This document shows positions 39,030-43,293 of a stretch of 48,696 bases of DNA, one piece after another (the first letter of the stretch is position 1; every line of letters starts with the position of its first letter). This stretch comes from Nostocoides sp. Soil756 (lineage in GTDB: Bacteria > Actinomycetota > Actinomycetes > Actinomycetales > Dermatophilaceae), in contig NZ_LMSE01000002.1 of NCBI RefSeq assembly GCF_001428065.1, positions 588,315 through 637,010 on the forward strand. The letters run 5' to 3'. Both the position numbers and the translations under genes were made by a program. The notes under the pieces are model-generated. The model was not told the DNA's origin, searched no databases, and saw nothing but the letters and a program-made list of their open reading frames with translations.

Positions 39030-39035
39030 ACAATA
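39030..39035 (-). promoter_or_regulatory. Putative leaderless -10 box of LacI-family gene
   Basis: Minus-strand TATTGT, 7-base spacer, then GTG at 39022. It touches the operator palindrome at 39035, so bound repressor would cover the -35 region: autoregulation by position. Confidence 0.5.
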
Positions 39036-39064
39036 TCGAATCGATTCGATCGAATCGATTCGAT
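39035..39064. promoter_or_regulatory. 30-bp perfect palindromic operator of the LacI-family regulator
   Basis: Two identical 16-bp palindromes (ATCGAATCGATTCGAT), at 39035-39050 and 39049-39064, share two bases; together they form a 30-bp perfect palindrome. Each has the AATCGATT core with central CG typical of LacI-family operators. Centre spacing is 14 bp, under 1.5 turns, so two dimers would sit on partly opposite faces. This is also the most A/T-rich spot nearby. Confidence 0.85.
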
Positions 39065-39104
39065 CCGCGCTGCGGCGCGTTGTCCCAGCCCAGGAGAGAC
39101 CGCC

Positions 39105-41910: not shown

Positions 41911-41930
41911 TCGCGTCCGGCGTCGCTGGG

Positions 41931-42041
41931 CACCGGCCGCGCCGCTGGCCACCGGTCAAGCCGGCGGTCACCGGCCCCAGGAGGCCGGTGCAGGCGAGGG
42001 TGACCGGTGCAGGCCAGGGTGACCGGTGCGGGGCGCGAGCC
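41931..42041. repeat. 19-bp-phased repeats upstream of the AbiEi-like gene
   Basis: CACCGG occurs in plus orientation with A at 41932, 41951 and 41970, exactly 19 bp apart. After a 14-bp phase shift, CCGGTGC (the inverse) occurs at 41985, 42004 and 42023, again exactly 19 bp apart; 42004 and 42023 carry ACCGGTGC. The non-core bases are poorly conserved. Related to the array after the gene (43075-43264). Confidence 0.7.
42015..42034. repeat. Left copy of an exact 20-bp direct repeat around the AbiEi-like gene
   Basis: CAGGGTGACCGGTGCGGGGC at 42015-42034 recurs unchanged at 43274-43293, with the AbiEi-like gene and the 19-bp array between them. It shares the ACCGG core of the phased repeats, so it may be a repeat-derived match rather than a target-site duplication. 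Confidence 0.75.
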
Positions 42042-43074: not shown

Positions 43075-43264
43075 GCACCGGTGAGCTCGGCGCCGACCGG
43101 CGGCCTCGTCGCGCACCGGGCATCCCGCTGGGCACCAGGGGGCTCGGCGCGCACCGGGCATCCCGCTGGGCACCAAGGGGCTCGGCGTGCACCGGGTGTC
43201 TCGTTGCGGACCGGTGGGCTTGTACCGCACCGGGCATGGCGCAGCGCACCGGCCACCTGGGGCC
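43075..43264. repeat. Degenerate 19-bp tandem array, 10 units
   Basis: Units start with GCACCGG or a close variant at 43075, 43094, 43113, 43132, 43151, 43170, 43189, 43208, 43227 and 43246, that is every 19 bp without exception. The rest of each unit is degenerate, but units at 43113 and 43151 are identical, and those at 43132 and 43170 differ at two positions, so a 38-bp higher-order repeat exists. 19 is not a multiple of 3, so this is not a coding repeat. No spacers, so not CRISPR. The rest of the 450-base gap (43050-43499) holds a copy of a 20-base direct repeat, a ClgR-like site and the clpX promoter. Confidence 0.85.
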
Positions 43265-43273
43265 GGGGTACAG

Positions 43274-43293
43274 CAGGGTGACCGGTGCGGGGC
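43274..43293. repeat. Right copy of the exact 20-bp direct repeat
   Basis: Identical to 42015-42034. The match is limited to these 20 bases: the flanking bases differ on both sides. Confidence 0.75.

Follow-up and report, generated by a model that had tools for sequence, protein, structure and literature searches.

A palindromic repeat family on both flanks of an AbiEi-like, probably nuclease-bearing gene between clpP2 and clpX in an actinobacterium

Dispersed palindromes that lie beside a partner gene have so far been described, in the available excerpts of the literature, with RAYT/HUH transposases. REPtrons, as characterized in portions of three papers, combine dispersed palindromes with a mostly single-copy HUH transposase that gives no sign of mobility (PMC8266576, PMC3116915, PMC3733652), and TIRtrons are, in the portion of one of these, RAYT-like tyrosine transposase genes bordered by terminal inverted repeats, which can form dispersed families (PMC3733652). 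AbiEi proteins, according to excerpts of two studies, bind inverted repeats and autoregulate (PMC7319586, PMC11062541), their known sites, in the first of these excerpts, being 23-bp inverted repeats in the promoter (PMC7319586). Here we analyse a 48,696-nt stretch of the genome of Nostocoides sp. Soil756 (the window), in which repeat arrays lie on both sides of an AbiEi-like gene situated between clpP2 and clpX. In this case the palindromes accompany an unrelated, probably nuclease-bearing family, in genomes in which no Y1/HUH transposase was found (0 of 12). We judge it fairly probable that the arrays belong to a dispersed family of palindromic repeats, as its copies at the flanks of the AbiEi-like nuclease gene, and that this gene is the family's partner, the two forming a REPtron-like pair. 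This is apparently an undescribed gene–repeat partnership, of which a first-pass annotation of the window had reported one flank.

That annotation had described ten consecutive 19-bp units downstream of the gene, each with a GCACCGG-like core and with a 38-bp A-B-A-B order among them, as a single array between clpP2 and clpX. The ten units are present (Table 1): identity at lag 19 is 0.57 across 171 bp from position 43075, against a window mean of 0.30 (sd 0.046), a value reached by 20 of 48,507 window start positions. When lags of 7–59 were scanned in 170-bp segments, the two highest values in the window, 0.71 at lag 38 and 0.61 at lag 19, both fell in this array, so the 38-bp step is real. 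The core does recur in the 19-bp step, but only some units carry it exactly (CACCGG at 43076, 43114, 43152, 43190, 43228 and 43247), and the place of the array is more exactly between the AbiEi-like gene and clpX. Nor is it the single, isolated array it was taken for: it is palindromic, has a counterpart across the gene and further copies in the genome, and is of a kind typical of this gene family. It extends past the ten units to about 43288, through CACCGG-N10-CCGGGG to an inverted CCGGTG that is still in register, and the mismatch in this centre is kept identically in a sister genome (G119). A second, cleaner array of CACCGG half-sites lies on the opposite side of the gene; it folds moderately better than shuffled sequences (z = −2.56), and the downstream segment 43075–43264 folds no better than shuffles (z = −0.44). 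Neither GTAG nor CTAC occurs within 41930–42029 or 43075–43288. A coding origin of the array was rejected, since 19 is not a multiple of 3. Elsewhere in the window (39035–39065), a 14-bp palindromic unit richer in AT is repeated in tandem, in 2.2 perfect copies (ATCGAATCGATTCG), between oppositely oriented reading frames; this tandem looks like the operator of a LacI-like regulator read on the minus strand upstream.

Table 1. The AbiEi-like gene and its flanking arrays, in window coordinates.
Feature	Position	Strand	Description
Upstream array	41930–42029		CACCGG ×3 (41931, 41950, 41969), 10 bases, CCGGTG ×3 (41985, 42004, 42023); 19-bp register; inverted about a 22-bp centre, 41969–41990
AbiEi-like gene, 319 aa	42090–43049	+	AbiEi-like N-terminal part and probable Vsr/PD-(D/E)XK-type C-terminal domain
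Downstream array	43075–43264		Ten degenerate 19-bp units in '+' orientation; 38-bp higher-order step
Centre and inverted unit	43247–43288		CACCGG-N10-CCGGGG at 43247–43268, one mismatch to the palindromic centre; CCGGTG at 43282

The repeat is dispersed through the 3.47-Mb genome. There are 39 occurrences of CACCGG-N13-CACCGG, compared with 8 when the pattern is reversed, and the longer form that includes the palindromic centre (CACCGG-N13-CACCGG-N10-CCGGTG) occurs 12 times, against 0 for the control; a search for this longer form in 118 other genomes of the family gave one match in each of three. Outside the window, arrays are found at six places (C1:217.7k, C2:720k, C3:127.8k, C4:103.3k, C4:183k and C5:21.9k). 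In eight regions of the genome, neighbouring half-sites on the same strand stand 19 bp apart in 28 of 33 cases and 38 bp apart in another 3; the plus-to-minus spacing is 16 bp in 8 of 18 cases and 35 bp (16 + 19) in 3, and the minus-to-plus spacing is 17 bp in 4 of 12 and 36 bp (17 + 19) in 3. Four arrays of this family were folded, and those at L046 (z = −5.1) and L045 (z = −4.4) outdo shuffled sequences by a wide margin. G119 has an array at every one of the six dispersed sites, with unit numbers changed and one gap of exactly 19 bp, so recent movement of this family is not seen. At L045 (5990–6300), a 208-bp duplication carries an entire CACCGG array, and G119 has a single copy at that place.

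The 319-residue window protein has no Pfam or NCBIfam match, and a profile search of solved structures found nothing; PADLOC models of AbiEi match it (best E = 8.8e-11) and also match 58 of 62 relatives. Among these relatives, Pfam at E ≤ 0.01 recognizes AbiEi_4 in 17, AbiEi_1 in 6, and DUF559 and MTES_1575 in one each, no transposase family being among the matches, and NCBIfam gives zero matches. MTES_1575 is described in an excerpt of PMC3710099 as a restriction endonuclease of the Vsr fold. In Foldseek, an AlphaFold2 model of the window protein (pLDDT 93) matches the AbiEi antitoxin 6y8q best (E = 2e-3), with the Vsr endonuclease 1vsr as a weak match at rank 31 (E = 5.6, TMt 0.45). Residues D155, G200, E201, D233, E242, D244, G245, K248, E267, R270 and R282 are invariant in all 62 relatives; E201, D233, E242, D244 and K248 may constitute a Vsr/PD-(D/E)XK-type active site. 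We regard the C-terminal domain as probably of the Vsr/PD-(D/E)XK type, a predicted nuclease.

Six of the 12 genomes of the genus (Phycicoccus) hold the gene between clpP2 and clpX, the five others being 58–92% identical to the window protein, and a second gene type (51–58% identical) lies elsewhere in five of the 12, in one of them beside the clp type. A comparison of this region in close relatives had been suggested as a check on unit number, which does vary: in G119 the gene again lies between two CACCGG arrays, whose unit numbers differ from those of the window's own genome. The old tandem expansion that the annotation had offered is to this extent seen, because unit number is unlike that of the sister species; alone, it fails to explain the dispersal and the pairing. 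The four clp-type genes besides that of G119, each in another Phycicoccus species, are flanked by repeats of different sequence, and a role specific to clpX is unsupported. In 9 of 10 flanks of the five other clp-type genes, no lag ranks above 19. Of the suggested selection on spacing, what stands is that half-site spacing looks constrained, given the same-strand pairs at 19 bp and the preference for lag 19 in flanks of related genes with other repeat sequences (37 of 159, below). The gene also occupies the clpP2–clpX place in Janibacter HTCC2649, Knoellia aerolata and Knoellia Soil729; as judged from these genomes, the clp-type gene holds its place in Phycicoccus, Janibacter and Knoellia while the repeats diverge. 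Six species have no gene at this place, and three stretches upstream of clpX inspected by eye among them contain no such array. One of them, G125 (L093 1500–2140), has a different repeat between clpP2 and clpX, a 26-bp tandem containing TGACGTCA. In Knoellia locipacati (L105 3756–6727), the AbiEi-like gene between clpP2 and clpX is inverted in orientation, an arrangement that recombination between flanking palindromes could have produced.

Repeats shared by the two flanks of a gene were surveyed in two sets of relatives. The first consists of the best 80 loci of 412 relatives from a contig scan of named actinobacteria, to which two Phycicoccus loci were added and from which one was dropped because of a short flank; related species are represented among the resulting 81 loci, so that not all count as independent. 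An upstream/downstream repeat score of at least 36 was reached at 66 of the 81 loci; in the controls, 16 of 648 swapped and 23 of 511 shifted pairs reached it. A score of at least 60 was reached at 45 loci, compared with 5 of 648 and 0 of 511. The median flank palindrome score was 54, against 27 in controls. Of nine arrays folded in all, seven are predicted to form strong hairpins (z = −4.4 to −15.7). Among lags 10–40, lag 19 ranked first in 37 of the 159 gene flanks and in 7 of 1,365 other segments of the same loci; these control segments are probably mostly coding, and within the flanks themselves no rival lag was top in more than 10. As to equal lag-19 peaks elsewhere, which the first-pass annotation had named as evidence that would count against the array, the window's lag scan held none as high, and the comparison covers the window and those 1,365 segments.

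At E ≤ 1e-20, the gene was found in 62 of 296 genomes across the phylum. The phylum set comprises 56 loci outside the window's own genome (the 48 best listed, with E values up to 1.4e-42, and 8 with weaker matches chosen by hand) and is independent of the first set, 0 of 56 loci matching at more than 90% over 500 bp. A flank repeat score of at least 44 was reached at 37 of the 56 loci, in 23 of 27 genomes, and in controls by 1 of 560 between-genome swaps and by 4 of 92 in which different genes within a genome exchanged flanks. Loci below the pairing thresholds number 15 of 81 in the first set and 19 of 56 in the phylum set. Lag 19 was top in only 10 of 120 flanks (60 loci, four of them from the window's own genome), with lags 15 and 24 ahead at 15 and 12, so the 19-bp iteration is common, not universal, and the paired repeat is the more general feature. 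When pairs were grouped by protein identity, scores of at least 44 were seen for 19 of 19 at 80% or more, 12 of 12 at 70–80%, 29 of 43 at 60–70%, 57 of 259 at 50–60%, 29 of 1,160 at 40–50%, 8 of 1,697 at 30–40% and 0 of 50 below; this trend carries no weight, since orthologues at the same place share flanks. On the evidence of these flank sequences, genes of the AbiEi-like family are often bordered on each side by a copy of the same palindromic repeat.

Dispersal was examined for ten flank repeats, chosen by hand for clear pairing, from Curtobacterium, Nocardia, Protaetiibacter, three Knoellia, Flexivirga, Janibacter and two Cryobacterium. The repeats were joined and searched in their ten genomes, with both strands counted and at most 40 candidates scored per genome, giving at least 385 matches (at least 12–88 per genome). 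Every match, among those listed, was to the genome's own repeat, and copies lay at two or more places beyond the gene flanks in each genome, at more than 30 in Nocardia vulneris among the matches listed. Judged by these matches, the flank repeat is in each of the ten genomes also present at other places of the same genome. Twelve flank repeats searched in the twelve genus genomes matched, among the matches listed, mostly their own genome or one with the same gene type; across genomes of the same type, the G083 repeat surrounds the second gene of G053, and the G123 repeat surrounds the gene of G124. The exceptions among the matches listed are copies of the G123 type in G122 and G083, one match in G083 to the clp repeat of G053, copies in G120 like those of G106 with one like that of G001, and one G083-type match in G123. 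Because of the copies in G122, where the homologues found are only about 37% identical, and in G120, gene and repeat are not one-to-one; by these matches, the repeat is largely specific to its gene lineage. In G106 (L233 1168–2395), a homologue of 33% identity has on both sides a tandem repeat, apparently not palindromic, with a step of about 43 bp and many further matches in the genome.

The closest likeness in layout is to REP/REPIN sequences and their RAYT (TnpA-REP): the repeats are dispersed and mostly palindromic, the same repeat lies beside a single-copy, apparently non-mobile gene, each gene has its own repeat family, and tandem and inverted arrangements occur. Dispersed palindromic repeats common to the gene flanks, as in a REPtron, are found here. 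In contrast to RAYT, however, which is a Y1/HUH transposase, the protein here combines an AbiEi-like part with a probable Vsr/PD-(D/E)XK domain; the window arrays lack the GTAG tag, and their half-sites are iterated at 19 bp. TIRtrons share a gene bordered by repeats that also form dispersed families, and differ in their tyrosine (HUH) transposase, which was not found here. With AbiE type IV toxin–antitoxin systems, in which AbiEi reads inverted repeats near its own gene, the window gene shares the AbiEi-like N-terminal part, matched by both PADLOC and Foldseek to a DNA-binding antitoxin (putatively binding here as well); unlike them, it has an extra nuclease-like domain and repeats on both sides and dispersed. 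In the window, no AbiEii nucleotidyltransferase toxin gene adjoins it, its neighbours being clpP2 and clpX. Among open-licence PMC texts, no paper listed connected AbiEi or DUF559 proteins to dispersed palindromic repeats, which is weak evidence of absence.

We propose that the AbiEi part would read the repeated half-sites, often 19 bp apart and inverted about a palindrome or hairpin, and that the nuclease domain would nick or cut the palindrome as a duplex, a cruciform or a single-stranded hairpin. Repair or replication would then copy units to new places and lengthen or shorten the arrays. Such a pair would work like REP/REPIN with a single-copy, domesticated RAYT transposase, by means of an unrelated enzyme. 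The known binding of inverted repeats by AbiEi proteins supports the AbiEi part as the reader, and the invariant putative catalytic residues support cutting. The broader proposition, that actinobacteria hold a new class of repeat–enzyme pair in which an AbiEi-guided Vsr/PD-(D/E)XK-type nuclease, not a transposase, copies and maintains its own palindromic repeats in the host genome, each family having one enzyme lineage and half-sites often lying at 19 bp, is in our estimation evenly poised between true and false.

The main rival, which we consider unlikely, is that the repeats are binding sites of an AbiEi-type autoregulator turned wider regulator or nucleoid protein, with no repeat being moved and with the nuclease domain serving another use, such as defence. 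Excerpts on the binding and autoregulation of AbiEi proteins through inverted repeats (PMC7319586, PMC11062541), the naming of 58 of 62 relatives as AbiEi by PADLOC and the retention of all six dispersed sites in the sister species favour it; however, the repeat usually flanks the gene on either side, downstream included, the dispersed copies occupy more than 30 places in Nocardia vulneris (among the matches listed) and change wholly between related species, and the putative catalytic residues are invariant. Distinctly less probable is an insertion-sequence-like element, in which the flanking palindromes would be transposon ends, the dispersed copies miniature derivatives and the gene an active transposase. 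Paired repeats do border the gene and short copies are dispersed, a layout also seen in MITE families, but the window's own genome holds neither a near-identical second window gene (the next homologues are 37% identical or less) nor near-identical copies of the whole element, the clpP2–clpX place is kept in several species, and no known transposase family was matched in Pfam or NCBIfam. A functionless old local tandem expansion beside the gene by chance is very improbable: it agrees with degenerate units, with a unit number that varies between sister species and with a downstream segment that folds no better than shuffles, but it is contradicted by the identical half-site and register at six other places and across the gene, and the pairing with a gene family in the phylum-wide sample also argues against it. 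We give almost no credence to a RAYT or other Y1/HUH transposase elsewhere spreading repeats that merely collect around the AbiEi-like gene, for although REP/RAYT layouts look alike in excerpts of PMC8266576 and PMC3733652, Y1_Tnp (PF01797) matched none of 12 genomes, two of which have a known completeness, against 5 of 14 control genomes, so that these 12 contradict it and this is not a RAYT system, the window arrays lack GTAG and CTAC, and within one genome the pairing tracks the individual AbiEi-like gene.

If the AbiEi-like nuclease gene and the palindromes are indeed REPtron-like partners, another enzyme class can spread and keep repeats, as an independent solution to the role of RAYT and REPIN. 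The family would then supply many natural, diversified enzyme–repeat recognition pairs for specificity studies, and a possible role for proteins now labelled AbiEi-like or left unnamed. AbiEi matches in defence-gene scans need not mean toxin–antitoxin systems.

At least seven homologues are present in the window's own genome. A flanking palindrome of its own (score 130) accompanies the gene at C7:37.7k, with a further copy at C2:7762, and flank-pair scores are 123 at C2:133k, 77 at C2:1019.9k and 45 at C4:467.9k; the homologues at C2:273k and C2:698k have no common flank repeat. One copy of a second family is present in G119 and absent from the window's own genome, a 137-bp difference with no clear target duplication or readable direction; L242, a second candidate empty site, was too rearranged to read. 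The gene at C4:356k, with a flank-pair score of only 32, is bracketed by a third palindrome family with 19-bp half-site spacing, which matched at nine further places. This third family (L053 6012–7200), with half-sites GCACGCAG 19 bp apart, came to light by accident in a flank query.
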